Source: a virus. Taken from it: 29,277 nt of DNA. Shown here piece after piece: positions 4,343-24,220 of this stretch (the first letter of the stretch is position 1; each line of letters begins with the position of its first letter). The notes under the pieces are model-generated. The model had not been told where the DNA came from and ran no database searches. It saw nothing but the letters and a program-made list of their open reading frames with translations. Where the stretch lies: the IMG/VR virus record IMGVR_UViG_3300028388_004431, positions 1 through 29,277 of that record; one strand, 5' to 3'. The translations under genes were made by a program, and so were the position numbers.

Positions 4343-4465
4343 TTAGAAGCTCTTATATACGAAAGGATCTCTTTTTTTGAGTTCTTCGAGTCTCTTTTCA
4401 AACTCCTTGTCTAATTCCTTTTGAGATTTTTTTTTAGATTCTTTCTTTTTTTGTTCAGCTGCCAT
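4343..4465 (-). CDS. Lysine-rich 40-aa protein, unknown
   Basis: A short ORF that starts with ATG at 4463-4465 inside the last codons of the carbamoyltransferase (11-nt overlap) and stops with TAA at 4343-4345. The product starts MAAEQKKKESKKKSQKELD, continues with a Lys/Glu heptad-like helix, and ends RDPFVYKSF. About 45% of residues are Lys or Glu. The overlap and the fit between two real genes suggest a translated small basic protein rather than chance, but the low-complexity poly-A coding makes this less certain. No family recognised. Confidence 0.5.
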   Translation of the reverse strand: MAAEQKKKESKKKSQKELDKEFEKRLEELKKRDPFVYKSF

Positions 4466-6113
4466 ATTTTTGGATCAAATAATTATTGATAACTAAAAAA
4501 TCTATATCACTACTTAGAAACCTATCAATAGCCTGATTAGGTGTCATTGTGATTGTCTGATCTTTTAAGTTAAATGAGGTATTCAAAACTACAGGTAAAC
4601 CGGTTGTTCTTTGGACCTCTTCTAACAATAAATAGTAACGTGGATTTTGTTCTTTAGTTACTGTCTGAACTCTTGCAGTACTATCTATATGTACTGCTGA
4701 TGGTATTTGTTTAGTTTTTGCTGGGACTACAATATTCATGTAAGGAACAGGTTCCTTGAGATCAAATAATCTATTAGCTTTATCTGCTTTTACAGAAGGA
4801 GCAAAAGGTCTGAAGCCCTCTCTCTTTTTTATAATTTTATTTAGTTTTTCTCTCATTTCAGGGTACTGTGGAGAAGCAATAATTGATCTATTACCAAGTG
4901 CTCTTGCACCAAACTCCATTCTGCCTTGAAACCATGCTACAACTTTTTGATTTTTTATTAATTCAGCTACCTTTTTTAGTAGTAGATCATCTGCTAATCT
5001 AAAAGAGCGTATATTAGGATAAGTTTGAATCAGCTTATGTACTTGTGTATCGGAAAAATCAGGGCCAAGATATGGGCTTGTATTACTTTTCTTAGGACCA
5101 TTATAATTATAAAGACAGGCACCAATTGCAGAACCAGCATCAGATGGGGCAAATGGTACAAATACTGAGTTAAAGTAATTATAGGCTAATTTATTAGCTA
5201 CACCGTTATATGCACAACCTCCTCCTAAACATATATTCTGTTCTCCGGTTAGCTCTTTAGCCTGTTTAACTAACCTGACAAAATTTTCTTCATATAGTTT
5301 CTGTATGGCAGCAGCTAAATCTTTATGTTCTTGTTTTACTTCTTCCTCAGGTAATCTAGGCATAATTTCAAGTAACCTAAATAACTCTTTTGTAAACATT
5401 ATCTTATCTGAGTATTCCCAGGCAAAGTATTTCTGATTTACAATAAATCCATCGGTAGTTAATGTTATAGTCTGTCTTAACTTTTTTAGGTATTTGTTAG
5501 GATCACCATAAGGTGCTAAACCCATAACTTTATATTCGCCTTCATTAGGTTTAAACCCTAAATATGCAGTAATAGTAGAATACAAAAGTCCTAAAGAATT
5601 AGGAAAATTTATACTCTTAAGTTTTTTTATCGAACCTTTAGTACCATGTGAAATAGTAACTGTTTCCCATTCCCCTACTCCATCAACAGTTAAAATTGCA
5701 GTGTTTTCATACGGGCTAGTAAAGTAACTAAAAGCAGCATGTGAAAGGTGATGATCAGTATAGATAATCTGACCGGAAAACCCACCTTCTCTAATGATAT
5801 GTTCTGGGTCATTTTTTTTGCTATCTGATAAAAATTTAATTCTCTTAGAAAGAGTTTTAAAAAAGTGTTTATTGAAAGACTTAATAATTCTATCTTTCTT
5901 AGTTATAGGATTTTCGTACCAACAAACTTGGTCAACAGCATTTATCGATGTTCTACTCTCTCTAAGGCACCAGTTTATAGCATTAATAGGGAATCTGCTA
6001 TCATGTTTAATACCTGTAAATCTTTCCTCTTCTGCTGCTGCAATAACTTTACCGTCAACCACAATACAAGCGGCTGAATCATGATAAAAAGCTGAAATTC
6101 CTAGTTGAATCAT
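4455..6113 (-). CDS. NodU/CmcH/TobZ-family O-carbamoyltransferase
   Basis: A 552-aa protein of normal length for the family. The N-terminal domain opens GISAFYHDSAACIVVDG with HD at 11-12 and AAAEEERFTGIKHDSRFP at 25-42. DHHLSHAA at 120-127 supplies the conserved metal histidines, and TVDGVGEW follows at 142-149. The C-terminal carbamoyltransferase domain shows FQGRMEFGARALGNRSI at about 394-410 and a KIIKKREGFRPFAPSV-type segment soon after. Known members transfer carbamoyl from carbamoyl phosphate via carbamoyl-AMP to a hydroxyl of a sugar or antibiotic. The acceptor here is unknown: a surface glycan, a modified base or a cofactor are all possible. An AAGGT stretch before the ATG is one of the few Shine-Dalgarno-like sites in the window. 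The start is 1 nt after the stop of the 52-aa gene, and the gene is the last large member of the accessory cassette. Confidence 0.92.
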   Translation of the reverse strand: MIQLGISAFYHDSAACIVVDGKVIAAAEEERFTGIKHDSRFPINAINWCLRESRTSINAVDQVCWYENPITKKDRIIKSFNKHFFKTLSKRIKFLSDSKKNDPEHIIREGGFSGQIIYTDHHLSHAAFSYFTSPYENTAILTVDGVGEWETVTISHGTKGSIKKLKSINFPNSLGLLYSTITAYLGFKPNEGEYKVMGLAPYGDPNKYLKKLRQTITLTTDGFIVNQKYFAWEYSDKIMFTKELFRLLEIMPRLPEEEVKQEHKDLAAAIQKLYEENFVRLVKQAKELTGEQNICLGGGCAYNGVANKLAYNYFNSVFVPFAPSDAGSAIGACLYNYNGPKKSNTSPYLGPDFSDTQVHKLIQTYPNIRSFRLADDLLLKKVAELIKNQKVVAWFQGRMEFGARALGNRSIIASPQYPEMREKLNKIIKKREGFRPFAPSVKADKANRLFDLKEPVPYMNIVVPAKTKQIPSAVHIDSTARVQTVTKEQNPRYYLLLEEVQRTTGLPVVLNTSFNLKDQTITMTPNQAIDRFLSSDIDFLVINNYLIQKYGS

Positions 6114-6114
6114 T

Positions 6115-6273
6115 TTACCTTGGGTTTGGAACTAATCGAAATGTACATCCTGGTCTGCCGTTAATTATTGGCATACCAAATTCGTCATATTCAATCGTTT
6201 TTACTTTAACTCTCTTATTTTTAAAACGACCGGTCATTATTATATCACCGACCTTAACGTCTATTTTTATCAT
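6115..6273 (-). CDS. 52-aa conserved-looking small protein
   Basis: ATG at 6271-6273, TAA at 6115-6117. The protein begins MIKIDVKVGDIIMTGRFKNK, continues through KVKTIEYDEFGMPIINGRPG and ends in Pro-Arg. The alternation of short beta strands with VGD and INGR turns is that of a small SH3-like barrel, and similar VGD...G+(F/W)KNK...INGR proteins are familiar from phages and Bacteroidota. It overlaps the end of the DUF2061 gene by 20 nt and ends 1 nt before the carbamoyltransferase start, so it sits inside the operon. Function unknown. Confidence 0.72.
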   Translation of the reverse strand: MIKIDVKVGDIIMTGRFKNKRVKVKTIEYDEFGMPIINGRPGCTFRLVPNPR

Positions 6274-6472
6274 TTAAACCAAATTTACTGTACTTATACC
6301 AAGCTCTTTCGTGGAAATAGTAAAGCACCATTTTAGTTACTACTTCAACTCCTCCGATAGCAACTCCAAATTTCCAATTTCCTGTAATAAGCCAAGACAG
6401 TATAATAGTATCTAAAGTACCGATAATTCTCCAGCTAATAGTCTTAGCTAAATGTCTTTTATAACTTACCAT
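6254..6472 (-). CDS. DUF2061 small membrane protein
   Basis: A 72-aa protein with the DUF2061 signature: KRHLAKTISWRIIGTLDT at about 5-22, then a hydrophobic helix, a WKFGVAIGGVE turn, a second helix, and LYYFHERAWYK at about 50-60. Two membrane segments are expected. Known DUF2061 proteins are about this size and are sometimes encoded next to or fused to APS kinases, as is the neighbour two genes upstream here. Molecular function is not established. It overlaps the nucleotidyltransferase by 14 nt and the 52-aa gene by 20 nt. Confidence 0.85.
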   Translation of the reverse strand: MVSYKRHLAKTISWRIIGTLDTIILSWLITGNWKFGVAIGGVEVVTKMVLYYFHERAWYKYSKFGLNDKNRR

Positions 6473-6809
6473 CTTTTCTTAATTCTTCTCGAATTTTTGT
6501 AGCAGATATTTCTTCAATATCAGCAGGAGGTACATGCTCTATTACTTCATACCCAACTCCTCTACCGTAATTTATAGATTCTATATCTGGAACTATACTA
6601 ATAAATATTTTACCTTCCTGTATTAAGTCAGTTAGTTCTTTTTCTAGGTTCATTAATACCTCATGAGGTGTCCAAGGTTGATTTTCGTTAGGTTCTACAT
6701 CTCTTATAGCAATCCAAACTTTTTTACCTTCCTTTAATCGTTGGTCAATCAGCCATCTATGACCTGAATGCCAGGGCTGCCACCTCCCTATGAACAGACT
6801 GTATTTCAT
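6459..6809 (-). CDS. Short NadM-like nucleotidyltransferase
   Basis: A 116-aa protein of the HxGH cytidylyl/adenylyltransferase superfamily. The nucleotide motif GRWQPWHSGHRW is at residues 8-19 (His14, His17), and the C-terminal ISATKIR at 101-107 matches the ISATxIR signature of archaeal/phage NMN adenylyltransferases. It is shorter than typical NadM (about 170 aa), so it may be a minimal catalytic core; the substrate could be NMN or another phosphorylated small molecule. The start must lie at or near 6809 because the HxGH motif follows at once. The gene therefore overlaps the APS-kinase gene by 53 nt in another frame, unusually long for this window. Confidence 0.82.
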   Translation of the reverse strand: MKYSLFIGRWQPWHSGHRWLIDQRLKEGKKVWIAIRDVEPNENQPWTPHEVLMNLEKELTDLIQEGKIFISIVPDIESINYGRGVGYEVIEHVPPADIEEISATKIREELRKDGKL

Positions 6810-7248
6810 TTTTTAATGTTATTAGTGATTCTTCAGGTGTTTTACCTGTGGTATCTAAATTAATAAAATTCTTTAAAGGTTTCTGATATCCTTCAACATG
6901 GTAATTTTCTCTACCTCTAATATCTGTGGTATGTACGTAAATTTCTATAATCTTATCTTTGAGTAGAGCTTTAAATTCTTCTCTTTGATCAATATAAGGA
7001 GAAACTAACGAAACAATTACATCTTCGTCATTATTATGTAAATAATGTGTAATTTTTTGTGCCAAGGCTACGTTGGCAACTCTACCTTCAATTCCGTAAT
7101 TCGTATTCTCAGTTAAAGCTCTTAAATCATCGCCATCTACACGTTGAACCTTGTAAAAGAAACTTCTATTTTTTTCTAACTCTTCTTTTAAGAGGTTAGC
7201 GACAACAGTTTTACCAGCCCCAGGCTGGCCTGTAAACCAATATACCAT
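6757..7248 (-). CDS. cysC: Adenylylsulfate (APS) kinase-like P-loop kinase
   Basis: A 163-aa protein. Walker A is GQPGAGKT at residues 7-14. VDGDDLRALTENTNYGIEGR at 37-56 corresponds to the APS kinase DGDxxR...N.dLgf...R region, with NYGI in place of DLGF. The length is slightly under bacterial CysC (about 200 aa), and the lid and C-terminal part are reduced. CysC phosphorylates APS to PAPS. No ATP sulfurylase or sulfotransferase is seen here, so the true substrate may be another adenylylated or hydroxylated compound. It is followed by, and overlaps by 53 nt, the NadM-like nucleotidyltransferase, suggesting consecutive steps on the same nucleotide-type substrate (inference). No strong Shine-Dalgarno; AAAGTT precedes the ATG. 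Confidence 0.82.
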   Translation of the reverse strand: MVYWFTGQPGAGKTVVANLLKEELEKNRSFFYKVQRVDGDDLRALTENTNYGIEGRVANVALAQKITHYLHNNDEDVIVSLVSPYIDQREEFKALLKDKIIEIYVHTTDIRGRENYHVEGYQKPLKNFINLDTTGKTPEESLITLKNEIQSVHREVAALAFRS

Positions 7249-7282
7249 AACTTTGCTTTACTATTAATATAATATTTTAACT

Positions 7283-7948
7283 TTAAATAAGCAACTTTTC
7301 TTTTGGTTCTTTTAGTTCTATATAATTATTAAAATTGCTTTTTAGTATATAGTTAGCAAATTGCCAATGTCCTTTGATAGAAAAATGACCATCAATAAAC
7401 TTACCCTTAGTACGAACAGATACAGTCTCAAACTTTTCACCTGTTTTAATATTATTAAAAGTAACTTGAAATGGTATTAAAATAAACCTTGCTCCTATGC
7501 TAGTAATATATTTACCAATATTTTGATAAATGTCTCTATAGTATAATTCAAAATGATCCATCCTTTTGTATCTATGGTCATAGGTAAAATTAAAAGCACT
7601 CATAATATCATTGTAACTATCAAAATCACTATCTTTCTTATTGCTAACGGCCTCCACTAAATGAGCATTCGTAAGTGAAATAATTTTATTCAAATGAGGG
7701 CTGTATATTTCAATTCTATCAGGAACTGTCTCTAATAAAAAAACTATATCTCCTGGTTTTATAGATGTTAGGTGTTCTATAATTAACTTGAGTATTATTA
7801 AAGGGCTTGCAGCGCCCTGTCCGTAGTTCTTATAATTAAACTGCTCAAACATAGCTTTTTGGATTAATTTTGGCCAAATATAATTTGTCCTAGCTAAAGC
7901 GTGTCCTTCTGTAAAGCTATCTCCGAAAAAATGAAGTGTACTTTTCAT
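7283..7948 (-). CDS. SGNH/GDSL-like hydrolase
   Basis: A 221-aa protein. The block I motif FFGDSFTEG is at residues 7-15 (nucleophile Ser11). NYGQGAAS at 41-48 fits the block III oxyanion Asn, and DGHFSIKGHWQFA at 186-198 fits the block V Asp/His dyad. No signal peptide, so it probably acts in the cytoplasm. SGNH enzymes remove or transfer acyl groups from sugars, lipids or peptides. Its ATG overlaps the stop of the radical SAM gene by 4 nt (ATGA), so the two proteins are probably made together and may act on one substrate. The acceptor cannot be predicted. Confidence 0.72.
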   Translation of the reverse strand: MKSTLHFFGDSFTEGHALARTNYIWPKLIQKAMFEQFNYKNYGQGAASPLIILKLIIEHLTSIKPGDIVFLLETVPDRIEIYSPHLNKIISLTNAHLVEAVSNKKDSDFDSYNDIMSAFNFTYDHRYKRMDHFELYYRDIYQNIGKYITSIGARFILIPFQVTFNNIKTGEKFETVSVRTKGKFIDGHFSIKGHWQFANYILKSNFNNYIELKEPKEKLLI

Positions 7949-8991
7949 ATTAAAGATGCATCTAAAGTATCAATGTGATGAAAATTATGTATTACACCAG
8001 CTCTTGTAACTTTTTTAAGTTCCTTAACAAATTGTTCGTATTCAGGATGATTAGGATTATGTATCTCCTCTTGCTTAAACAACTCTTTAGTGGGATATGC
8101 TCCCCAATCTGTAATAGCGTTAAAGTATATTTCGTATTTCTTATTCTTACCCTTCATAAGGTCTGTAATCATCTCATAAAACATTCTCATTTCGGTATAA
8201 TTCTTTTGTTGAACTACAAATGAAAATCTCATCACATTTATTGAAGGAATTTTCGAAATAAACTGCAAATTACTCTGAAGTAGGTCCCAGTCGCCTCTTA
8301 GTCTAACTTTATTTTCATATGTATCTTTTGTAGCTGCATCTATAGAGATTTCACAACTACTAATATACTTATGTACTTTGTTTACCTGTTTCCATAACTT
8401 TGGAGTCCATAGATTAGCATTTGTATGTATGTGAATTTTTTTTAATTTTGGAAATTTAGAGCTATCAAAATTTTTCATGAAGTTCACATAACTTTTGGAG
8501 AAGAAAGGATCCCCGGCACCACATAAAGTTATATTTTCTACATACTTACCAACAGTGTCAGAAACATTATCAATTGTAACGTCAACCTTATCTCTTAATT
8601 CTCCTTTATAATTTACAAAATTTAATCTACATGACGGGCATTGTAGGTTACAACTAGGGTCCCAACCAAATGTAATTGTTCTAGGTTCTGGGGTTGCTAA
8701 TCTGCTATTTTCAAATTGATCTTTAGGAATGAATTTGTTAGATACTCTTCCATTATCTAATTCAGATAAGTAAGGACATTGTTTTGCATCACAGTACTTA
8801 TATGAACCGTCTAAAATACTTTCTCTTATTTTATTAGACTTATCAGAATACCAATTTTTTCCGTAGTCTTCACTTTCTTTGATATCCTCTCTCAACCATG
8901 AAGGGCAGCATAACCACTGATGATTTTCAGATATTTCAGAATATGAGAACGGAAACATGCAAACATACTTCTTTCGTAACTCCTTACTCAT
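7945..8991 (-). CDS. Radical SAM protein with N-terminal Cys-rich (SPASM-like) module
   Basis: A radical SAM enzyme of 348 aa from the chosen start. The [4Fe-4S]/SAM motif CNLQCPSC is at residues 114-121 (Cys114, 118, 121), followed by LCGAGDPFFS (GGE-like) and HIHTNANLW. Unusually, about 110 residues precede the core and carry Cys11, Cys28-Cys29, Cys67 and Cys72 (CMFPF, WLCCPSW, YCDAKQCP). These look like the auxiliary-cluster (SPASM/twitch) signature normally C-terminal to the core. I chose ATG at 8989-8991 rather than the in-frame ATG 24 nt upstream because it carries a start context (CTATTTATATATATG) identical to that of the gene starting at 12658. Likely chemistry is radical modification of a peptide, sugar or nucleotide. 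It heads the accessory cassette just downstream of the tRNA. Confidence 0.82.
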   Translation of the reverse strand: MSKELRKKYVCMFPFSYSEISENHQWLCCPSWLREDIKESEDYGKNWYSDKSNKIRESILDGSYKYCDAKQCPYLSELDNGRVSNKFIPKDQFENSRLATPEPRTITFGWDPSCNLQCPSCRLNFVNYKGELRDKVDVTIDNVSDTVGKYVENITLCGAGDPFFSKSYVNFMKNFDSSKFPKLKKIHIHTNANLWTPKLWKQVNKVHKYISSCEISIDAATKDTYENKVRLRGDWDLLQSNLQFISKIPSINVMRFSFVVQQKNYTEMRMFYEMITDLMKGKNKKYEIYFNAITDWGAYPTKELFKQEEIHNPNHPEYEQFVKELKKVTRAGVIHNFHHIDTLDASLI

Positions 8992-8995
8992 ATAT

Positions 8996-9003
8996 ATAAA
9001 TAG
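8996..9003 (-). promoter_or_regulatory. CTATTTAT element before radical SAM gene
   Basis: The coding strand reads CTATTTAT 4 nt before the chosen ATG, within a 15-base string (CTATTTATATATATG) also found exactly at the start of the Calx-beta gene. Possible late promoter or translation element; unproven. Confidence 0.3.
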
Positions 9004-9033
9004 GAAAAGCCGCATAATAGCGACTTCTCATAG

Positions 9034-9111: not shown

Positions 9112-9441
9112 TTAATTACCTACCTTATACCAAAGCCATGCTTTATTAGTACGAGGTTTAGAAATCACCATAGTTGTATTATTAACAAAGAAAGCTAAAT
9201 CGTAATCATCTTTTTTATCATATCTTTCAATATGCATTTCTCCGTTTTGAAATATAATTACTCCTGTGGCTAAGACTTTACCATCTGGTCCTCTGCGTTC
9301 AAATATTTCACCATACCGTATGCGTAGAAATTCTCCACCTTCACTTTTCCAGGTACCGTAAATATTCTGTGGGATAAGATCCTCTTGCCCAAAAGCAAGA
9401 GAACCTCCCAAAATTAAAAAAAGGAATATTAACTTTTTCAT
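9112..9441 (-). CDS. Small secreted protein with N-terminal signal peptide
   Basis: A 109-aa protein. MKKLIFLFLILGGSLAFGQ is a classic signal peptide (basic n-region, hydrophobic core, AFG|Q cleavage likely after residue 18). A Gln right after cleavage is common in Bacteroidota exported proteins. The mature part (about 90 aa) contains IYGTWKSEGGEFLRI and later beta-strand-like segments, reminiscent of small lipocalin-like domains beginning with a GTW turn; this resemblance is weak. Its ATG overlaps the queC stop by 4 nt. A secreted protein from a lytic-type phage could act in the periplasm, for example in superinfection exclusion or lysis control, but nothing shows which. Confidence 0.72.
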   Translation of the reverse strand: MKKLIFLFLILGGSLAFGQEDLIPQNIYGTWKSEGGEFLRIRYGEIFERRGPDGKVLATGVIIFQNGEMHIERYDKKDDYDLAFFVNNTTMVISKPRTNKAWLWYKVGN

Positions 9442-10259
9442 GCTGCGTGTTCTGCTAATAATTTTTCAACATGTGCTTTCGCAATGTTATAATCAACCGG
9501 TCCAGTTTCGTCCTCGTACTGTACAGGGTCATCCACACCCAGTGCGATAAATGCTTCAATCCTTTCAACAGATGAAGCTGATTTGTAATCGCTATTACCG
9601 CTAGGATAGGGCTTGTAAGATGTATTAGTTCGTTTGTACACCTCATTAAACTCGATTCCGAGCTCTTTAACCAATTCTTGTCCATCTTTTAAGATTCCTA
9701 ATTTATCAGTTTCTAAGTAAGGTGTGAAGTATCCTACCTTCTCAGCTTCCCAGTTACCTAATCTAAATGCATTATCATCAGCATCTCTAAACTCTTGTCT
9801 ACAGTCAGGATAGATTGCATGATCTCCTGCATGAATACCTAATGCAATATCAGTATCATTTCCATTAGCATTAGCTGCTGACAGAGCAACTGCTTGAACT
9901 AAAGAAGCAAAGATTTTGTTTCTGTTAGGTACTACAGTAGCTTTCATGTTATCTTCTTCATAATGACCTTCCGGTACATCATCTCCTCCTGTTACTAAAG
10001 CTGAGTTTAGTAGGTTAACTAATCCGTCTAATTTAATAACTTGGTAGTTAATTTTGCATCCTCCAAAACATTCGTTATCTGAAGGGCAATTATCATTAAT
10101 ATAGTCTACTAATGATTGAGCTCTTTCTAGTTCTACTCTATGCTTTTGACCGTAATCAAAAGATATCGCAGTTACATTGTCATACTCTGATAAACATCTG
10201 AGTAGTAAAGTTGAGGAGTCCATCCCTCCTGAAAGACTAATAACAACATTTTTTGCCAT
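9438..10259 (-). CDS. queC: QueC-like 7-cyano-7-deazaguanine (preQ0) synthase lacking the usual zinc cysteines
   Basis: A 273-aa protein. The N-terminal PP-loop is SLSGGMDSSTLL at residues 8-19, then FDYGQKHRVEL at 34-44, VVPNRN at 109-114, GIHAGDHAIYPDCRQEF at 141-157 and TPYLETDK at 179-186, all in QueC order. QueC makes preQ0 from 7-carboxy-7-deazaguanine, ammonia and ATP. The C-terminal zinc site of typical QueC (W-x-C-Y...C-x-x-C-x-x-C) is TNTSYKPYPSGNSDYKSASS here (211-230), with no Cys at all. Instead, a small Cys cluster (Cys58, 64, 68: CPSDNECFGGC) is inserted after the first strand-helix unit. It may still fold as QueC, using a relocated or no metal site. Together with the QueD-like gene it suggests 7-deazaguanine synthesis for phage DNA or tRNA modification. 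Confidence 0.85.
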   Translation of the reverse strand: MAKNVVISLSGGMDSSTLLLRCLSEYDNVTAISFDYGQKHRVELERAQSLVDYINDNCPSDNECFGGCKINYQVIKLDGLVNLLNSALVTGGDDVPEGHYEEDNMKATVVPNRNKIFASLVQAVALSAANANGNDTDIALGIHAGDHAIYPDCRQEFRDADDNAFRLGNWEAEKVGYFTPYLETDKLGILKDGQELVKELGIEFNEVYKRTNTSYKPYPSGNSDYKSASSVERIEAFIALGVDDPVQYEDETGPVDYNIAKAHVEKLLAEHAA

Positions 10260-11074: not shown

Positions 11075-12658
11075 CTATGGTAGTAAAGTTAGTGCTTCTG
11101 TAGTATTTGTAAAATTAGTTCCGATATGGTTCCATGAGGCTGGTCCACTACCTAAAGTTACAACCTGAGAATATGCTTCTTGCTGTGCTCCTGAACCTGT
11201 AATTGGTGCTTCACTATGTTGTCTACATGTTCCAGTATATCCAGTAAAGTCTACTGTAGAAGTGTATGTATATGTTCCTGGGCTTACTGTGCCTATTTCT
11301 GTAAATTCTAACTCAATAGGATCAATACCATAAAATAAAGGGTTATGTAGTGAATTTGCTCCACATTTTACAATCCCGGACACCCATGCTCTAGGAGTAC
11401 CTAAAACTAAGTCTGTAACACCTACTGTGTAGTTAAGTGATAATGTTCCTGTAAAGTCACCAGTAATATTATTAGTATTTACGCTGTAACTACCACTATT
11501 AATGAAAACTGTACCGACTAAAATACTTGTATCGTTAATAGTTACAGATTGAGAAGCCTGTCCATTGTCTAAGGACAGAGTCATAGTCTCAGTACCTTCG
11601 GTAGTATTATCGTTTATTAAAGAAACGATCGTTTGGGCAGTATTATTATTAACAGTAAAATTACCTGTTAGATTTTCATTGATATCATTAGAGGATATTC
11701 CTGTAATTGTAAAAGGTAGAATAGTACCGTTAGCAATATTAGATGTAGTCAGAGTAAATACTACTGTGTCTCCTTCGTCAACTGGTGTTGTAGCTGATAT
11801 TGTATAAGTAGGTGCGGGTGTAGTACTTGTATCATTAATAGTCACCGAAATAGGTTCACACACTACATCATCTAAGTCTATTGTTAATGTTTCAACCCCT
11901 TCTGAGACGGCGTCTTCTGCAATAGTTAACGCAATTGACCCTGATTGGTTATTAACTGTAAATGATCCTGTAATATTTCCCGATGATAAATCACTTTGGC
12001 TAATCCCAGTGATTGTATAGTCAAATGTTGATCCTCCGTCAACACTAGTAGTAAGCAATGTAATAGTTAAATTATCACCTTCGTTGACTGTAGCTTTAGA
12101 AGCAGATAATTCAAATGTTCTAGTAAATCCTTCGAATCTAGCCCAAAATGAATCAGAACCTGTAAATGTAGTTTGAGTAATTGTAAGAGGATTTGTAGTA
12201 GAAATTAAATTTCCTCCTGTTTCTGAATCGTACCAGCCTAAAAACGCTGTGTAGTCAGGGTAGACATAAGAAGCTTCTATAATAAAAGCCGAATGATTGA
12301 TGAAGTTAACAGTCTGTTCTAATGAGCCTGTAGTTGGTCCTGCTGCAATTGGTGCATTTATCTGAACAGTGTTAGTCAATGACCCTGAGTTAGCTACGTT
12401 AAAATATCTTTTATTAGGTTGAAATATAGAATTCGAAAAACTTGCTGATACTTGAGTACAATCCCCAGAATCAGACACTAATGCCCAAAAGGTATCTACT
12501 CCGTCTGCTACCTGTACTGTTACACCCGAACCTGTTAGTTGTGCTGGTGTAATGTTTTCTGCAAGTAAGTTAGCCGGTGCAATAGAAGTATGATACAAGG
12601 ACATTGAAGTAATATCCCCACCTATTGAATTTGCGTATAATTTTATACTCTTGGACAT
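11075..12658 (-). CDS. Virion adhesin-like protein with two Calx-beta repeats
   Basis: A 527-aa Thr/Ser/Asn-rich beta protein. Two Calx-beta-type repeats occur at about 184-277 and 285-378, each with V-(N/D)-EGD near its start, ITGIS, GxFTVNN, EGxETxTxxLD and a closing VTINDTS. The N-terminal 180 residues contain two DxFWAxx segments and FLGWYDSETGGN, which resembles InlB/Listeria-Bacteroides-type beta repeats (GWY...GG). The C-terminal 140 residues are unassigned. Calx-beta domains bind Ca2+ and are common in surface adhesins and phage structural proteins, so this is probably a decoration, fibre or whisker protein contacting the host surface. It lies 12 nt after nrdA, an odd place for a virion gene, and starts with the CTATTTATATATATG context. 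Confidence 0.75.
   Translation of the reverse strand: MSKSIKLYANSIGGDITSMSLYHTSIAPANLLAENITPAQLTGSGVTVQVADGVDTFWALVSDSGDCTQVSASFSNSIFQPNKRYFNVANSGSLTNTVQINAPIAAGPTTGSLEQTVNFINHSAFIIEASYVYPDYTAFLGWYDSETGGNLISTTNPLTITQTTFTGSDSFWARFEGFTRTFELSASKATVNEGDNLTITLLTTSVDGGSTFDYTITGISQSDLSSGNITGSFTVNNQSGSIALTIAEDAVSEGVETLTIDLDDVVCEPISVTINDTSTTPAPTYTISATTPVDEGDTVVFTLTTSNIANGTILPFTITGISSNDINENLTGNFTVNNNTAQTIVSLINDNTTEGTETMTLSLDNGQASQSVTINDTSILVGTVFINSGSYSVNTNNITGDFTGTLSLNYTVGVTDLVLGTPRAWVSGIVKCGANSLHNPLFYGIDPIELEFTEIGTVSPGTYTYTSTVDFTGYTGTCRQHSEAPITGSGAQQEAYSQVVTLGSGPASWNHIGTNFTNTTEALTLLP
11525..12109 (-). repeat. Tandem Calx-beta coding repeats
   Basis: Two about 94-residue tandem repeats (residues 184-277 and 285-378 of the adhesin-like protein), each ending VTINDTS and separated by a Pro/Thr linker. 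The DNA has diverged although the protein spacing is kept, implying an old duplication. Confidence 0.65.
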
Positions 12659-15486: not shown

Positions 15487-15822
15487 TTAGAATAATTTAC
15501 TCAACGTTTCTTGATCTAGGTTAAATCTAGGTCCAGCAGATTCCTGATCATGGGTCTCTGTAACCTTTCCTTCAAATTCAATACGACCGTTATTAGTGTC
15601 CATTTTAACATTATAGGTCATACCGTCTTGTCCATATCTATTTTTCATAACATGAACTCTTCCTGTACCAAGTACTTTATCTTCTTTCTGTCTTGATAGT
15701 GATAGACAAATATCTGCAACCATCATTTTATCATATGAGCCCAATAAATACATCATCGATTTCATCTTTACGTTCCGAAAACTTGCCTTTAGAGGGAGCA
15801 CGTAAGTAATCCACATAATCAA
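15487..15822 (-). pseudogene. Frameshifted C-terminal fragment of the gp41/DnaB-like helicase
   Basis: An open frame of 111 codons, of which only the last 84 residues (from about 15741 down to 15490) look like helicase. They begin GSYDKMMVADICLSLSRQKE and continue GTGRVHVMKNRYGQDGMTY, matching the end of the RecA-like core of T4 gp41-type helicases, with a short variable tail ending LSKLF. The first 27 codons are an out-of-frame reading of the upstream gene. Relative to the family, roughly 35-40 residues that should join ...KDEIDDV to GSYDK are missing, including the segment with the motif SQ-x-NR. Either this strain has a broken helicase or the assembly lost about 110 bases. An ATG near 15756 could restart translation, but a free C-terminal piece would not be a helicase. 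Confidence 0.7.
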
Positions 15823-16717
15823 TAATAACCATATCAGGCTTGTGATCCATGTCGATACATTTTTGTATATGTGACTTAACGGTATTTACCGTCGCTGATT
15901 TAGGGGCGTACTCTTTTACTATAAGTTTACCTTTAAGACTGTCTACATAGGTCTGAACCTCTTTACGGTGTTTATTGACCTCATCAATAGAGTACCCTGT
16001 AAAGTAGCAGTCAAAGCGTTTTCCAACGTAATCTTCTCCAAGTTCCAAAGTATAATAGTTGACTTTATACCCCATTTTAACAGCATGAGCAGCAATTGCA
16101 ACCATAGTCCAACTTTTACCGCCGCCTGGATTACCAAAAACAATAGCCAGGTCCCCAGGTCCAAATCCTCCTTGAATGCCATCGTTAAGGATAGGCCAAG
16201 GTGAAGGGATAGTAGGGCGATAATCAGTCCTATATCTAGTTTCAACATCTTTGTTGTATTCATGTCCTATATTTTTATCCATACCTGCCTTCATGGCTTT
16301 CTCTATCATATTTCGGATACCGTCAAAGTCATGTTCTTTTAATAAATCAGCCGATGAAAGTATGGCGTTTTTCATTTCTTGATTCTTACAAAAAGTCTGA
16401 AATTCTTCTTGTACGTAATCTAAATCATCTTGAGAAGCTTCATAAGAATTTCTCAGCTCTTCTTTTAACGCTACTTGGAGTACTTCGTTTTCTAACTTTT
16501 GAAGTTCTACTTTAAGAACATCCATTGTAATGTTAGTATGGTACTTATCGAAGTAGTCTTTAATTTGATTGATAATCCATTTATGGGAATCAGCATCAAA
16601 GTAATGATCATGTAATACGTCTCTAACATTGAGTAAGAAACTTTTGTCTGTGAGTAATGATCCTAAGACCTTTAATTGGAACCCCTTCCCGTACTGCTGT
16701 AAGCTTTTTAATGTCAT
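15731..16717 (-). CDS. Replicative DNA helicase (gp41/DnaB-like), truncated by frameshift
   Basis: 328 aa. Residues 1-150 are the helical N-terminal (DnaB/gp41-type primase-interacting) domain. The RecA-like domain then shows SPWPILNDGIQGGFGPGDL at 172-190, Walker A GNPGGGKS at 195-202 (Lys201), YTLELGED with the catalytic-type Glu at about 225, and Walker B MVIIDYVD with Asp300. The frame ends 22 codons later, after RKDEIDDVFIGLI, where family members continue for over 100 residues (sensor Gln, arginine finger). The missing end partly reappears in another frame at 15487-15741, so this is a deletion plus frameshift, not a natural C-terminus. An intact version would unwind DNA at the phage fork with the polymerase and gp32-like protein encoded upstream. 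The start is preceded by AAAGG. Confidence 0.88.
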   Translation of the reverse strand: MTLKSLQQYGKGFQLKVLGSLLTDKSFLLNVRDVLHDHYFDADSHKWIINQIKDYFDKYHTNITMDVLKVELQKLENEVLQVALKEELRNSYEASQDDLDYVQEEFQTFCKNQEMKNAILSSADLLKEHDFDGIRNMIEKAMKAGMDKNIGHEYNKDVETRYRTDYRPTIPSPWPILNDGIQGGFGPGDLAIVFGNPGGGKSWTMVAIAAHAVKMGYKVNYYTLELGEDYVGKRFDCYFTGYSIDEVNKHRKEVQTYVDSLKGKLIVKEYAPKSATVNTVKSHIQKCIDMDHKPDMVIIDYVDYLRAPSKGKFSERKDEIDDVFIGLI

Positions 16718-16741
16718 TTAATAACCTTTGTTTAAATATAA

Positions 16742-17164
16742 CTATTTTTCGTCTAATAACCAACTAGATGATTGAATTTTATCTCCTAATCCATCAACTA
16801 ACTCTATACCCAATTTTTTACATATTTTAGCCTCAGGTATAGTTTTATTGGTCTGGTCACCTCCGTTTGCAAAACAAAGATTATGTTGCTTTCCATTAAG
16901 CTTATGAATATACTTAAGGGATTCGATTTGTGTTTGATCCTTATCAATAGAGACCATAGTATAATCGACATATTTTATACTGTCAACAATAGTAGCTCTT
17001 TCTTCTTGATCCATAAATTCTTTCGAACCTTTTAATTCTCTTTGAAGATCTGAGTTAACTACAACAACAAGAATATCTCCGTATTCTTTTGCTTTTTGAA
17101 AGAGCTCTAAATGCCCTTTATGGAGTGGATTAAAATACCCACTAACTATTACTGCTTTTTGCAT
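16742..17164 (-). CDS. HxGH nucleotidyltransferase (RfaE/HldE adenylyltransferase-like)
   Basis: A 140-aa single-domain protein. The motif GYFNPLHKGHLELF at residues 9-22 has the complete HxGH (His15, His18); VVVNSDLQRELKG lies at about 34-46, NGGD at about 100-103, and KIQSSSWLL at 129-137 corresponds to the ISSTxLR-type C-terminal motif. Family members join a nucleotide monophosphate to a sugar phosphate, alditol phosphate or cofactor precursor; the heptose-1-phosphate adenylyltransferase type is the closest by eye. It overlaps the related gene upstream by 23 nt, so the two are a tandem pair of diverged paralogues, and it ends 24 nt before the helicase start. Substrate unknown. Confidence 0.8.
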   Translation of the reverse strand: MQKAVIVSGYFNPLHKGHLELFQKAKEYGDILVVVVNSDLQRELKGSKEFMDQEERATIVDSIKYVDYTMVSIDKDQTQIESLKYIHKLNGKQHNLCFANGGDQTNKTIPEAKICKKLGIELVDGLGDKIQSSSWLLDEK

Positions 17165-17558
17165 AACTATCTGAAATTAATTTTTTAAACTTTGTTGTTG
17201 ACCAACCATGATTTCTATTTAAATAATGAATTCTAATATCTAAATTATCACCTGTGAATGGCTTATCTTTATAATCATCCCCTAAAAACCTAACATCGAA
17301 TTCACCCATCTTAAGTAGATCAAGTAGCTGCTCTTCATAGGTGTACCTTATAACATGGTTTACCATTCTGAAGCATTCAAGCATATCTTTTCTATCATCA
17401 GATGAAGTTATAGGTTTTAATTTATGCGGTCTTTCAATTGACGGATCAGTATGAAGTAGAACAATTAAAACATCACAATGACGTTCCATTTCTCTGAACA
17501 TTTTTATATATCCCGGATGTATTACATCAAAATTACCTGCTATAACTCCTTTTATCAT
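17142..17558 (-). CDS. TagD-like cytidylyltransferase with HPGY motif
   Basis: A 138-aa protein of the glycerol-3-phosphate cytidylyltransferase/TagD type. GNFDVIHPGYIKMF at residues 8-21 is the nucleotide motif with the second His of HxGH replaced by Tyr17. FLGDDYKDKP at about 91-100 and WSTTKF (STT-type motif) at about 120-125 complete the signature. The His-to-Tyr change removes one residue that stabilises the transition state, so activity may be lower or altered, although the fold is clear. Its ATG overlaps the exonuclease stop by 4 nt. Together with the next gene it might make a nucleotide-activated sugar or alditol. Confidence 0.8.
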   Translation of the reverse strand: MIKGVIAGNFDVIHPGYIKMFREMERHCDVLIVLLHTDPSIERPHKLKPITSSDDRKDMLECFRMVNHVIRYTYEEQLLDLLKMGEFDVRFLGDDYKDKPFTGDNLDIRIHYLNRNHGWSTTKFKKLISDSYAKSSNS

Positions 17559-18580
17559 TTTACTGTTGTTAACCCTCTAAAATTTTCCAACCAACTCTCT
17601 GTATTCTTAGTTATTCCTTCAATTTTATCTTGATCTAAGTGATGTAAAAATGCTCCTGTTTGAAGTGCCGGTATAGGCTGTTTTAAACTATCCTCTACAA
17701 TTTCTATTTCATTCTCATTTAATGCTGTTTTATGTAGATCCATCAACTGGTAGTTAGTCAATACCTTCTCCCAATTGTGTATAATTTTAGCAAACACTTT
17801 CTTAGGTTTATTTCCGTCAAGTTGAGTTTCACAATGATCCCAAACGTCTTGTAATGACGCATTAGTGTCATAAGTAAAGCTTTTCCATTCAGATAATATA
17901 GTCTTAATCCCTAGCCCTTTGACTCCTGGTAAGTTATCTGAATTATCACCAAGTAACGCTTTTACTATATTATAGTTTTGTGGTAGTACTCCAATTTCAT
18001 CTTTTACATTCTCAAACGTAAAAGTTTTTTTCTTAACCGGAGCATATACCTCTATATTTTGATCAATCAATTGAAAAAAATCTTTATCTGATGATACTAT
18101 GGTAACTTTTTTATCAGCTTTAGAAGCTCGTTTAGCAATATAAGCTATTATATCATCAGCTTCTAATTTTTCCATACCGATTTGATGTACTGGTAAGCAT
18201 TCAAGATAGTCCCTAGTTCTAAATAATTGACCTATCAATGCTTCTTGTTCTTCTTCTCTTGTATCGTACAGACCCCAGTGAGTTATTCGAGCTGTTGCAC
18301 GTTGTGCTTTATAGTTAGGATTAATATTCTGTCTATTACCAGATCCTCCTTTACCGTCCCATATAATAAGCACCCTTGTTGGATCAAAGATTCTAGTTAC
18401 ATATCCAAGAGAGCGAAGAAACCCTACCAGGCCTCCGATATGTGTGCCTGATGGGTTCATCGCTTTGAGCAGTGAAAAGCTACGAATTAACATATTCATA
18501 GCATCAATAATCAAAATATGATCATTCAATGCTCTCGGGGGGGTCTCCTTTAAATTATTTAATATGGAATTATATTTCAT
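17555..18580 (-). CDS. rnh: 5'-3' exonuclease/flap endonuclease (T4 RNase H-like)
   Basis: A 341-aa FEN/PIN-domain nuclease. Metal-site acidic residues are in HILIIDAMNML (Asp26), VLIIWDGKGGSGNR at about 82-95, KLEADDIIAYI at about 143-153 and VSSDKDFFQLI at about 168-178, followed by LLGDNSDNLPGVKGLGIKT (the helix-hairpin-helix region with another Asp pair). The T4 counterpart is 305 aa and removes RNA primers and flaps from lagging-strand fragments; this fits the neighbouring helicase, polymerase and ssDNA-binding genes. Here the nuclease is a separate protein rather than the N-terminus of Pol I, matching the short polymerase. It overlaps the radical SAM gene by 11 nt and the TagD-like gene by 4 nt. 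Confidence 0.92.
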   Translation of the reverse strand: MKYNSILNNLKETPPRALNDHILIIDAMNMLIRSFSLLKAMNPSGTHIGGLVGFLRSLGYVTRIFDPTRVLIIWDGKGGSGNRQNINPNYKAQRATARITHWGLYDTREEEQEALIGQLFRTRDYLECLPVHQIGMEKLEADDIIAYIAKRASKADKKVTIVSSDKDFFQLIDQNIEVYAPVKKKTFTFENVKDEIGVLPQNYNIVKALLGDNSDNLPGVKGLGIKTILSEWKSFTYDTNASLQDVWDHCETQLDGNKPKKVFAKIIHNWEKVLTNYQLMDLHKTALNENEIEIVEDSLKQPIPALQTGAFLHHLDQDKIEGITKNTESWLENFRGLTTVK

Positions 18581-19769
18581 TTCTACTATTTAGTTTTTCT
18601 TCTCTGTGAAGTTCAAAAATTGTATCTAAAGCATTCTTTTTACCACAGTAAAGTGAGCATGCTGCTTGTTTACCTTCGGCTACTGATTTTTTCCACTTAT
18701 CGTTAAATATCTTCTCTAGTAATCCGCTAGTTAATATATGGTCTATAGAAGAAGTATTTAGATTGAAATTTTCTTTCCCATATTTTTCATGAGCTTCAAA
18801 CATTTGACGAAAAGAATAACTTACATAACCGCCCTGTTCGTACGCAGATCTAACTGCTCCAAAACCTAACCCTACAAAACAGCATGGATGCACAGTACCA
18901 TCGGCATCTACATAGATATCATTATGACCGCATCTTGGAATAATCCTAGTCTGGTCTGTTTCTTTAACTACGTCCCAATCACTATCTAATGTACATCCAA
19001 AATCAGGATTAATTTTTGCAGACCATAGAGTTTCCTCTTTGTATTTTGTCTTTACGTTATCTGGAAGATAAGTAGGTTTAAATTTATCAAGTGTAGTAGG
19101 TTCCAACCAGTACTTTACTTTTCCTTCTGAATCTAATACGCTTACTGGTGTTATGTTTTCACCGTCGTCTAAATTTACTGGTGCTTTAAATTCAATAGCT
19201 GCAAAGTTTAGTTCTTTTGAAAGTTTTTCAGCCTCTTCTAGTTGATGTTCATTATGTTTAAATACTAAGTAGTCCCAAATGACAAAAATATTATTATATT
19301 TAGTAATTTGCTTTACATTCTCTATTAATTTATCCCATTTAACATTTCTTCTGTAAATATGATTAGTATCTGCTAATCCGTCAATACTATATGTAAAATT
19401 GACATTTTTAGCTTTCATATTATTTAATGCAAAACCTATTTCATCCCAAAACCTAGGAGATTTCATTCCCCCATTTGTATGTATTTCAAATTTTTCAAAC
19501 GGAAACTGCTTAAGATAATCTATAATTTTAGGCAGATCCGGATTAGTACCAGGATCACCGTGGTTACCACAAAAATTAAGGTACTTAACTCGTTCTAATA
19601 CCTCTACTGGGAACCATTTTATAAAGTTTTCATATGATATATAACCTAAAAACTGCCCAGGTGCGGTCATAGGAGAGGTACTATTAAACCTAGGACAACA
19701 TGGACATGCAGCATTACAGAGACTTGATATCTCTAAATGCATATAGTTTATATAATCGAACCCTACCAT
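18570..19769 (-). CDS. Radical SAM/SPASM protein
   Basis: A 399-aa protein. The SAM/cluster motif CNAACPCC is at residues 18-25 (Cys18, 22, 25), followed by FCGNHGDPGTNPD at about 67-79 (GGE-like), then IHTNGG and YSIDGL. The C-terminal half has the SPASM auxiliary-cluster cysteines: GCTLD at about 260, CGHNDIYVDADGTVHPCC at about 285-302, and CSLYC near 380. SPASM enzymes modify ribosomal peptides, protein side chains or sugars; no precursor peptide gene is visible next to it. It lies between a 2OG-oxygenase-like gene (7-nt overlap) and the exonuclease (11-nt overlap) inside the replication block, so it may be expressed early. Substrate unknown. Confidence 0.9.
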   Translation of the reverse strand: MVGFDYINYMHLEISSLCNAACPCCPRFNSTSPMTAPGQFLGYISYENFIKWFPVEVLERVKYLNFCGNHGDPGTNPDLPKIIDYLKQFPFEKFEIHTNGGMKSPRFWDEIGFALNNMKAKNVNFTYSIDGLADTNHIYRRNVKWDKLIENVKQITKYNNIFVIWDYLVFKHNEHQLEEAEKLSKELNFAAIEFKAPVNLDDGENITPVSVLDSEGKVKYWLEPTTLDKFKPTYLPDNVKTKYKEETLWSAKINPDFGCTLDSDWDVVKETDQTRIIPRCGHNDIYVDADGTVHPCCFVGLGFGAVRSAYEQGGYVSYSFRQMFEAHEKYGKENFNLNTSSIDHILTSGLLEKIFNDKWKKSVAEGKQAACSLYCGKKNALDTIFELHREEKLNSRNEI

Positions 19770-20425
19770 GCTAAACTCCAGTACGCAACTTCTCTATACT
19801 CTTTACTACGGTTCCAACCTTCATGATAAGCCCATGGAGTATTAATATGTAAAATACCTGTTCCTGCTTTTGTAGGTCCTTGATGTATAAAAGAACCATA
19901 TTCAGGTCTTATCTCTCCATTTAGACTAAAGTTCTTATAGTACTTAGTACCAGAGTCAACCGGGTTATCTTTTATATTATAAACCATAGTAGCTAATATA
20001 CCGAAGTTATCTAGATGTACACTCTGTCTGTAATCAGGAGCATCTCTCCAGATATCCATAAAGCTCTCTATCGTAGTATAACTATCTAAGTCTACTGTAC
20101 TGTTGTCAAGTGCTTTCCTAAATTTATAGGATGGCCAGACATTCTCATAGAAGTAGTCAGTCTGAGTTAGTAGGTGCTCTCTAACACCTTTGATTAGTTC
20201 TCGGGCTGATTCTATAAACGTTAACGGAACATCAGTATAACATTCCTTACCTTGATATGCTAACTTATCTTCTTCACTAGCTGTTTCTAGATAGAATTCA
20301 TGTGCAGGTATCCATTTATTAGGATCCAGACTAGTAAAAATAGGTCCTTCACTAATTTCCCAGGCAGGGATAACTTCGATCAAATCTAATTCTCTATTAT
20401 TAGGAAATATAGGTGTAAATTTCAT
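19763..20425 (-). CDS. 2-oxoglutarate/Fe(II) dioxygenase-like protein
   Basis: A 220-aa protein. Its C-terminal half has the layout of a 2OG-Fe(II) double-stranded beta helix: HLDN (His137, Asp139), then the MVYNIKDNPVDSGTKYY strand-loop-strand at about 147-163, then the distal His201 in WAYHEGWNRS and Arg206 as a possible 2OG anchor. Phage members of this superfamily hydroxylate proteins, nucleosides or small molecules. The gene shares a base with the uvsX stop (TAATG) and overlaps the radical SAM start by 7 nt, so the two oxidative enzymes are probably coupled. The ligand triad is read by eye, so the family call is probable rather than certain. Confidence 0.7.
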   Translation of the reverse strand: MKFTPIFPNNRELDLIEVIPAWEISEGPIFTSLDPNKWIPAHEFYLETASEEDKLAYQGKECYTDVPLTFIESARELIKGVREHLLTQTDYFYENVWPSYKFRKALDNSTVDLDSYTTIESFMDIWRDAPDYRQSVHLDNFGILATMVYNIKDNPVDSGTKYYKNFSLNGEIRPEYGSFIHQGPTKAGTGILHINTPWAYHEGWNRSKEYREVAYWSLAW

Positions 20426-21495
20426 TAATCTAATAAGTTAGGTGAAATATTATCTTCTTCAAGATCACCTTCCTCAATTAAATCAAAGTCTAAACTTCCT
20501 ACTAATTTTAACCAGTGATCTTTATGTTCGTCTTTATATTTATCAATTGCTCTCTTTTCATCTGGTAAGAATCCATGAGATGTCATAACAATTCTACCTC
20601 TAGATTGAACACCGCCGATATGGTTTTTTTCTATCTGTACATTTGTTCTTTTAGCAAACTCTACTTGTAATCCGTCTTTGATTGCTTTAATCTTAGAAGT
20701 ACCCGGGTTGGTAATATTACCGAAAGTAATAACTAAAGTAGCATCATACCACATAGACATTCCACCTTTATTCTGAAGTTTAGGTTGGCCCATTGGTGAT
20801 TCAGGTTTCATTGTCCATACCTTATTAATAGCAACAAGCGTATTAGTATAAGGGGAGTTTTCTTTTCTAGATAACAAAATCTTTTGATTTAAATTATTAC
20901 CAAACTGAGTAGACATTGCTCCTGCGTTCCATTCGTTGTTATTCTTATTAGAACGTACTGATAAATCACAAGGTACAGAACCGATACTATCCCAGAAGAA
21001 ACACATATCGAAAGGTAAATTACCTTTAGCTTGTTCATCTAAGAGATCAGCAATATAAACTGCTACATCCTCAATAGTATTTAAGGTACCTCTATCAGCA
21101 TATAAAAAATGACCTTCATAATCAAGTACGTTACCGTCTCCGTCGCTAACTTCTTCGAACTGTAAGCCCATTTCCTTAGCGTGTTCCCAGGACCACTTCA
21201 TCTCAGTAATAATAAATACTGGTAGTATTCCTAATTTCTGTGCATTAACTGCAGCTTCAAGTAATGCAGTGGTTTTTCCTGTATCACTATGACCTCTAAG
21301 TAGAGTAATATGCCCGGTAGGAATACCGGGTAGTGATGTTATATCTTGAAAAGCTTTTGATAGCGGTATCCAGCCCTGTTCTTTGAACTTAACTGATGCA
21401 TTTGAATAACCTTTCTTTTGTTTAAAATTGGATAAGTTAAACGACTTTCTTACTGATGCAGTCGCTTTTTCTTGAGTTTCTTTCTTTTTTGCCAT
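20425..21495 (-). CDS. uvsX: RecA/UvsX-like recombinase
   Basis: A 356-aa protein. Walker A is GHSDTGKTT at residues 68-76 (Lys74), the catalytic-type Glu98 is in ITEMKWSW, and Walker B is FDMCFFWDS at 162-170 (Asp169). An NNNEWNAGAMSTQFG segment lies at about 184-198 in the loop region, and the C-terminus is acidic (EEGDLEEDNISPN), like UvsX/RecA tails that regulate DNA access. The N-terminal 40 residues are Lys-rich. It forms filaments on ssDNA and drives strand exchange, recombination-dependent replication and repair, displacing the gp32-like protein encoded just upstream. A strong terminator separates it from that gene, and the start context is AGTTATATG. Confidence 0.92.
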   Translation of the reverse strand: MAKKKETQEKATASVRKSFNLSNFKQKKGYSNASVKFKEQGWIPLSKAFQDITSLPGIPTGHITLLRGHSDTGKTTALLEAAVNAQKLGILPVFIITEMKWSWEHAKEMGLQFEEVSDGDGNVLDYEGHFLYADRGTLNTIEDVAVYIADLLDEQAKGNLPFDMCFFWDSIGSVPCDLSVRSNKNNNEWNAGAMSTQFGNNLNQKILLSRKENSPYTNTLVAINKVWTMKPESPMGQPKLQNKGGMSMWYDATLVITFGNITNPGTSKIKAIKDGLQVEFAKRTNVQIEKNHIGGVQSRGRIVMTSHGFLPDEKRAIDKYKDEHKDHWLKLVGSLDFDLIEEGDLEEDNISPNLLD

Positions 21496-21551
21496 ATAAC
21501 TATATTATAGTATAATATAATAAATTTTTATCAAAATACATACTAAATAAT

Positions 21552-21578
21552 GAAAAAAAAAGGCCGCTAATGCGGCCT
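21552..21578 (-). terminator. Strong intrinsic terminator after the ssDNA-binding gene
   Basis: The coding strand reads AGGCCGC-ATTA-GCGGCCT followed at once by a run of T. The perfect 7-bp GC-rich stem with a 4-nt loop stands out in this A+T-rich DNA. It starts 7 nt after the ssDNA-binding protein stop and would let that abundant protein be made in excess over UvsX. Confidence 0.9.
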
Positions 21579-21584
21579 GATTTT

Positions 21585-22376
21585 CTATTCATTAAACAGG
21601 TCGTCAAATTTGCTGACTGTGTTCTGTTTACCGGCTGTAGCATTCTCTAATGTGAAGTCGCTACTTGAAGATTCACTATCACTGCCGCCTGGTAGAGCTG
21701 CAGGAGCAGACTCCTCGTTAGAACCAGGATTTAGATAATTTTGAAGTTGCTTCTTAATGAAGTCATAATCGTACTCTGTATGTACTTCTATCGGATTAGG
21801 TTGGGTTTTTAACCATGTATCTACTTGATCGTTGTTGTCTGATAAAGCAGTTTGTTTAGGTTTAATTCTAACCGTAGTAGTTGGATAAGGGTTACCTTGT
21901 TGTTGTTCAACAACTAAATCCCAACCATTGATTACATCTGTGTAATCCCCTACGTCTTCGTCCTCTGCCAATGCAAGAAGAGCTTTATAAATTGTGATAC
22001 CGAAGCCCCATAGTCTTACACCTTTATCTTCTTCTCCTCTAACAATAACAGGAGCAAAGATTCTAGTCTTAGGGTTGAGTTTACCTGATAATGACCAATT
22101 GTCTTTGTCATTAGTCTTTCTTAGTTCTTTTACGAACTCTTCAATAGGGTCTTGCTTACCAAAATTAGATAACGCAACCATCGGATATTTACCGATACCA
22201 TAGTGAAATTTTAATTCCTTAAATGGGAATGTTGGATCGTACGCAGAAGGTACGATTCTAATCGTCTGTTTTCCTAATTCAGGTTTCCAGAAGATAGTTG
22301 AATAGTCAGTCTTTTCTCTTTCCTGACCGGTGTTGTTTAACTCGCCGAGTTTCGCTTTAATAGCATTTAAATCCAT
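21585..22376 (-). CDS. Single-stranded DNA-binding protein (T4 gp32-like)
   Basis: A 263-aa protein. The segments FWKPELGKQTIRIVPSAYD at about 29-47, FKELKFHYGIGKYPMVALSN at about 52-71 and TRIFAPVIVRGEEDKGVRLW at about 104-123 with the following FGITIYKALL match the OB-fold core of gp32-type proteins. No zinc-finger cysteines are seen, unlike T4 gp32. The C-terminus is a Gly/Ser-rich linker ending VSKFDDLFNE, an acidic tail that usually recruits helicase, polymerase and recombinase. It coats ssDNA at the fork and in recombination. The start context is AGTTATATG; the gene is followed by the best terminator in the window, suggesting a separately abundant transcript. Confidence 0.88.
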   Translation of the reverse strand: MDLNAIKAKLGELNNTGQEREKTDYSTIFWKPELGKQTIRIVPSAYDPTFPFKELKFHYGIGKYPMVALSNFGKQDPIEEFVKELRKTNDKDNWSLSGKLNPKTRIFAPVIVRGEEDKGVRLWGFGITIYKALLALAEDEDVGDYTDVINGWDLVVEQQQGNPYPTTTVRIKPKQTALSDNNDQVDTWLKTQPNPIEVHTEYDYDFIKKQLQNYLNPGSNEESAPAALPGGSDSESSSSDFTLENATAGKQNTVSKFDDLFNE

Positions 22377-22903: not shown

Positions 22904-24220
22904 CTATAAACAGAGATCTTTAGAATATTTAAATTTTATTGGGTATTTACCCCCCGATTCTAATATCTCCTGTAGTTCTTCTAAGGTTTCTTTGCCGTCT
23001 TCTTTATAAAAGTCAAACAATAAAGCGTCGTACGTGTAAAGAACTAATTTAGTTTTTTTATTTTGTAAGTATCTCAGTACTTCTTTCAATATAAGAATAT
23101 TTCTTGAAGTCTCTAACGACTGCATGATATAGTTCATTAATTTCTGAGGATTCATGTCTTTTAATCCTCTTCCAAATGGTTTTCCACTAATCGGTGCCAA
23201 GACTTCTCCGTCATCTTCAAATCGTCTCCAAAGCTCTCTGATAAAGCTATCAATTTTTGTAAAGATTTCAAGGAATGCCCATTTCTCTGGGATCTTGCCA
23301 TAAATTGCGTGAAAGTTAATTTGCTTTGCTTGGTTGTACTCGTCTTCATCGATCTCTTCTTTATTAAAATACTGTTTAGCTAACTGTTCGTGTGCTGATT
23401 CTTTTGTAAGTGGGTAGTCTATCTGATCAGAAAGTAACCTAAGGTGATAGCCATCAAAATCCAACTCAACAAAATAGTCCCCTTTCGGTACGAAGCACTT
23501 GCGGTGCTCGATGCTTTTAGGTATAGCAGCGAAATTAACAGAATTAAAAGCATTAGTGGGTCTAGATGTAACATTGTATAAATTATAAGAGGTTAGAACG
23601 GTATTATCTACCGTATTAAATAAAGGATTACGAGGGTTAAACATTTTTTTATACGCCTCATAATGTACTCCAATACCAGACTGCTCTAAAAGAAAGAAAA
23701 CATTGGTTGCAGTCTTATTGTAAAAGTCAAAACCAGACGGTATGTCATATTCGATCACATCTTTAACCTTATCGTATACTTTTTCACATGACTCAAACAA
23801 TTTACTTATAGGAACTAACTTATTTACTTCCTTAAATCCATTAAATTTATTATAGAAAAAATTTAAATCGTGAGAATACTCTAACTTATCGTATTTAGTC
23901 ATTGAGTATAATAACGAAAGGTCGATGGCTGATTGTATATTAAAGTAATATAGTAGGTTCTTTTTATCTAACGTATACACATTAGTAGCTTTAGAAAGAA
24001 TAGCAGAGACACGGTCTCTAGACACATTCATACCTTCATCGTGATCGATAGGAATTATGTATCCTTGCTTGGAGCCTACTAATCTAATGTAGACTGCCAC
24101 ACAAGAATTTAGCTTAGGGTGATAGGAGTAATTAGATGGGATTACATCTACATAAATTCCAAGTCTACCAAGCTTTTCGAGATTGTCTAACTTATCGTCT
24201 TGTTCTACTATATAAAACAC
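22904..24220 (-). CDS. Compact family A DNA polymerase
   Basis: 438 aa from a GTG start; the upstream frame closes within five codons and holds no ATG. Motif A is ELDFDGYHLRLL at 252-263 (Asp254; the Pol I Glu710 position is His259). Motif B is QAKQINFHAIYG at 297-308 (Lys299, Phe303, Tyr307, but the usual Arg four residues before Lys is Tyr). Motif C is LYTYDALLFD at 394-403 (Asp398, where HDE is YDA). Both catalytic aspartates remain. The N-terminal 140 residues look like a degenerate 3'-5' exonuclease-type fold without a clear DEDD set, so proofreading may be absent or supplied in trans. It is far shorter than Pol I (928) or T7 Pol (704) and has no 5' nuclease domain, which is encoded separately at 17555-18580. 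T4 itself uses a family B enzyme. Confidence 0.82.
   Translation of the reverse strand: MFYIVEQDDKLDNLEKLGRLGIYVDVIPSNYSYHPKLNSCVAVYIRLVGSKQGYIIPIDHDEGMNVSRDRVSAILSKATNVYTLDKKNLLYYFNIQSAIDLSLLYSMTKYDKLEYSHDLNFFYNKFNGFKEVNKLVPISKLFESCEKVYDKVKDVIEYDIPSGFDFYNKTATNVFFLLEQSGIGVHYEAYKKMFNPRNPLFNTVDNTVLTSYNLYNVTSRPTNAFNSVNFAAIPKSIEHRKCFVPKGDYFVELDFDGYHLRLLSDQIDYPLTKESAHEQLAKQYFNKEEIDEDEYNQAKQINFHAIYGKIPEKWAFLEIFTKIDSFIRELWRRFEDDGEVLAPISGKPFGRGLKDMNPQKLMNYIMQSLETSRNILILKEVLRYLQNKKTKLVLYTYDALLFDFYKEDGKETLEELQEILESGGKYPIKFKYSKDLCL

Follow-up and report, generated by a model that had tools for sequence, protein, structure and literature searches.

Closest described systems and genomic context

The closest isolate that we found to carry this helicase region is Flavobacterium phage vB_FspM_immuto_2-6A (Immutovirus), whose replicative DNA helicase (QQO91686.1; 72% DNA identity) is encoded by one intact ORF (record positions 5380-6732). 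Among structures, chain 8dtp and related entries, which we take to be T4 gp41 (the file label reads DnaB-like replicative helicase), are the best relatives by sequence of the intact homologue (E 1e-25, residues 17-431). The window analyzed here, meaning the whole stretch of DNA under study, is a linear IMG/VR virus record of 29,277 bases from a metagenome assembly. It shares with the Flavobacterium phage the core order ssb, recombinase, exonuclease, helicase, nrdB, and nrdA, but it carries additional genes between the recombinase, exonuclease, and helicase, and its helicase gene is broken. The replication block lies on the minus strand and includes the recombinase, a 5'-3' exonuclease, the helicase, and both ribonucleotide reductase subunits. 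This contig is that of a marine Bacteroidota-type phage with an Immutovirus-like replication block.

The nearest relative is IMG/VR contig 3300021964_000637 (here, L001), which served as the reference for DNA identity. Its 444-aa helicase is 97% identical in protein to that of the window over residues 1-326 and 99% identical over the C-terminal 83 residues, and the neighboring genes are the same downstream and largely the same upstream. L001 has 35 codons that are absent from the window, and the DNA identity between the two changes from 87% before the junction to 98% after it.

Several other minus-strand genes were observed on the contig. A QueC-type 7-cyano-7-deazaguanine synthase gene (9438-10259; PF06508, E 4e-38), common to 35 fetched relatives, may belong to a pathway for deazaguanine modification of DNA. 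A radical SAM/SPASM-like gene and a gene for a 220-aa protein without a Pfam match (18570-20425) separate the recombinase gene from the exonuclease gene, an insert present in only a few fetched relatives. The accessory cluster at 4455-9015 consists of a carbamoyltransferase, an APS-kinase-like gene, two small genes, one gene with no hit in Pfam, and one that matches radical SAM weakly; it resembles a cassette for modifying small molecules or glycans. A subtilase-family peptidase gene (PF00082) is found at 1136-2743. A short family A DNA polymerase-like ORF (22904-24220; 438 aa) covers part of the polymerase profile only; its relatives are equally long, and this group may therefore have a split or reduced polymerase.

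A helicase gene in two frames

The helicase gene comprises the following features.

15742..16717, minus strand: N-terminal part of the helicase, residues 1-325 plus one base, with K201 and D300; under purifying selection relative to L001
15731..15741, minus strand: out-of-frame tail past the junction, ending in a premature TGA stop
15741..15742, minus strand: deletion junction, with a net 104 nt absent; blunt or with an overlap of at most 1 nt; L001 DNA identity changes from 87% to 98%
15487..15741, minus strand: C-terminal part of the helicase (GSYDKMMVADI...LSKLF), one frame over; 98% DNA identity to L001

An internal deletion with a frameshift had been proposed from a sequence-only reading, and the frame does break at 15742/15741. 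The N-terminal ORF (16717..15731, minus strand; 328 aa) matches PF03796 (DnaB_C, E 3e-10) and phrog_19, DnaB-like replicative helicase (E 1e-57). Walker A (GGGKS, with K201) and Walker B (IIDYVDY, with D300) are both kept in it, as that reading held, although the stop that it placed 22 codons after D300 comes directly after residue 328 and therefore 28 residues on. The C-terminal stretch GSYDKMMVADI...GTGRVHVMKNRYGQDG, correctly expected in another frame from about 15741, begins at 15741 in a frame different from that of the N-terminal ORF and also matches phrog_19 (E 2e-5). A scan of IMG/VR recovered 407 relatives, the best 80 of which are 87-97% identical in protein to the truncated ORF; because of this identity and because both pieces match phrog_19, a chance ORF is excluded.

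The missing segment, sized on relatives

Alignment to relatives, suggested earlier as a way of sizing the gap, gave a single answer: the spacing from DEIDDVFI to GSYD is exactly 35 codons in 220/220 loci with both flanks recognized, representing 108 distinct alleles. Measured on L001, the net loss in the window is 104 nt, close to the 35-40 residues and about 110 bases, with the SQ-x-NR region, that had been predicted to be missing. As the loss equals 35 codons less one base, the frame shifts and a stop follows a few codons on. Residues 326-360, which are lost, contain the SQVNR motif and the loop ahead of GSYD, and every relative compared has them. In chain 8dtp they correspond to about residues 338-372 (position read from the printed alignment), in the RecA-like core, and they presumably represent the H3/H4 region, on which nucleotide sensing and DNA contact depend in the DnaB family. 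One continuous core domain with an SQxNR (H3-type) motif and the following loop is not found in the window, since the deletion removed both. Judged by its sequence, the window helicase is a broken and predictably non-functional member of the DnaB/T4 gp41-type family.

Could the two pieces work together? The TGA stop (15733-15731) is followed by four bases and then by ATG ATG in the C-terminal frame, and conserved sequence is kept in both pieces, as would be expected if the active helicase were formed by residues 1-328 together with a C-terminal piece that restarts at ATGATG, or through a frameshift. Neither frameshift, reinitiation, nor bypass can restore residues 326-360, because their DNA is absent; these residues occur in all relatives compared, and the two-polypeptide arrangement was found in no relative. 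We therefore give this explanation almost no credence, and, as the DNA itself is missing, a functional split, a programmed frameshift, an intron, and an intein are all unsupported.

It is also very unlikely that the missing piece was moved or is supplied elsewhere (by inversion, transposition, or removal of an intron or intein) or that another helicase substitutes for it. The window is only a fragment, and a second helicase elsewhere in the genome would be compatible with that. Against relocation, a search of all six frames of the window found no second copy of the missing stretch, and relatives encode it as plain continuous coding sequence. An excised intron or intein, one of the causes listed earlier, was rejected on the same kind of evidence: the 35 helicase codons are uninterrupted in 108/108 intact alleles, and nothing intron-like is left in the window. 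Replacement by a host helicase, also raised in the sequence-only reading, is not needed as an explanation. The collapsed assembly and the defective variant from the same list both survive and are weighed below.

A family branch that naturally ends at DDVF was sought and rejected, as relatives that stop nearby do so at the end of their contig. At the deletion end points of the intact relative, no pair of flanking direct repeats was found, and the L001 stretch across the deletion has a fold z of −0.86, which is nothing unusual; a repeat- or hairpin-mediated deletion was rejected accordingly. The 34-mer spanning the junction occurs in no other IMG/VR contig, in a search that may omit records very near the window. 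An independent assembly with the same junction, such as a natural deletion might have left, was not found in that search.

Soundness of the contig and state of both halves

Among ORFs from about 9.4 to 24.2 kb that have several full-length relatives, ends agree with those of the relatives, and the helicase alone differs, its relatives running 120 residues further. This comparison leaves out 11075-12658, which is poorly conserved (only a third aligns); ORFs near both window ends had no or single relatives among the fetched loci. The shared end points led us to reject a generally error-ridden contig. Neither helicase half shows signs of decay, and both are under purifying selection relative to L001, which implies that the break is either very recent or not real.

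An allele switch at the junction

DNA identity to L001 is 86.7% in the 300 nt before the junction and 98.1% in the 160 nt after it (40 versus 5 mismatches in the 300-nt comparison; Fisher P about 2e-7). Synonymous differences drop as well, from 99.5 over 193 sites in the N-terminal part to 4 over 51 sites in the C-terminal part, so protein constraint does not explain the jump; nonsynonymous differences number 20.5 and 1, respectively. The tail at the C terminus, which usually varies more than any other part of the gene, matches L001 nearly exactly, with the next best relative at 80%. A 42-mer from the C-terminal end has the L001 contig as its sole match, and a 28-mer just upstream of the junction, representing the N-terminal allele, has no match in other contigs. 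As a control, we compared 19 pairs of relatives that are equally close past the junction: in 17/19 the 300 nt upstream are at least 98.7% identical, and the other two pairs reach 94.3% and 90.7%, leaving the 86.7% of the window below all 19. Nearest-relative identity thus changes abruptly at the junction, as in a chimeric contig, and the jump together with the control pairs places a switch from one strain allele to another no more than about 15 nt from the deletion.

The same comparison bears on whether a real, defective phage was sampled, in which recombination between strains replaced the N-terminal tract of the helicase and 104 nt were lost at the downstream crossover. The divergent helicase tract, from about −850 to 0 (codons 40-325), averages about 86% identity to L001 and is flanked on both sides by 94-100% identity (upstream in 50-nt bins 900 to 1300 nt from the junction), as a replaced tract would be. 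Mosaicism relative to L001 is strong over 15741-21726 (minus strand), with stretches at 94-99% identity interspersed with stretches at 50-80%, and the mosaic tracts elsewhere in the contig show no break. Recombination is therefore common in these phages, and chance may account in part for the coincidence of an allele switch with the deletion; counting the tract borders in 7 kb, we estimate the probability of such a coincidence at roughly 5-15%. The coincidence is therefore suggestive of a join and no proof of one.

Weighing against a defective recombinant are the absence of the junction from other contigs, the lack of decay in either half, the loss of an essential replication gene, which should be quickly lethal, and the fact that deletion is not a normal outcome of homologous recombination. 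A null helicase allele of this kind would persist only through complementation in mixed infections or as a dying variant. We regard the defective recombinant as a serious contender that is nonetheless the less probable of the two surviving causes. It is improbable that a helicase-null lineage exists in the population, kept by complementation or a second helicase, with the window as a natural defective recombinant caught at birth.

Origin of the junction

The deletion falls where the DNA of the gene is best conserved (80-84% site identity versus 65-75% elsewhere). Contigs of relatives tend to end here: among 78 relatives examined, 9 contig ends fall in the 200 nt after DDVF, where about 1.6 were expected (Poisson P about 4e-5); the following 300 nt contain no such end, and the remainder of 5 kb has about 0.8 per 100 nt. 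Inspection of upstream lengths showed no clustering of relatives' contig starts at the site, and near-duplicate populations could be an alternative source of the contig ends. Where mixed strains share conserved stretches, assemblies are known to fragment or to yield chimeric contigs (PMC11443906, PMC5610896), conserved stretches between strains have been named as a weak point (PMC11443906), and in viromic benchmarks chimeric contigs made up as much as about 5% of contigs of at least 10 kb (PMC5610896).

On balance, we favor, with some reserve, the view that the break is an artifact of metagenome assembly or library preparation and that the gene is intact in the real phage genomes. Pieces from two slightly different strains would have been joined with 104 nt missing, and the contig would be a chimera of co-occurring strains, or a collapse of them, at the point where the gene is most conserved. 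With >100 related phage alleles intact, an artifact, or at best one defective genome, is the most likely source, and we infer an in vitro or in silico origin of the join, outside the phage.

The junction itself constrains how an artifact could have arisen. It is almost blunt (0-1 nt overlap relative to L001) and free of N, which means that a read or an overlap step must have bridged the join. A de Bruijn assembler normally needs spanning reads, making a pure graph misjoin an imperfect fit, and shared exact 21-mers show no clear enrichment there, which makes a k-mer tangle a weaker form of the assembly explanation. A library chimera would also yield a blunt junction, as would genuine illegitimate recombination, and in this respect the junction fits the defective recombinant too.

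Implications

On the preferred reading of an artifactual join, the object is a broken copy of an ordinary, known gene; that copy is probably absent from the living phage and reveals no new biology. The case is a caution for uncultivated viruses: here, the apparent loss of an essential gene from a contig coincides with a switch of strain alleles at a conserved stretch, and a chimeric or collapsed join would leave such a coincidence. Comparing nearest-relative identity on either side of a break is a simple check, usable for other supposed pseudogenes in viral metagenomes. If the break is real, the window would instead have caught a defective recombinant in a natural phage population.
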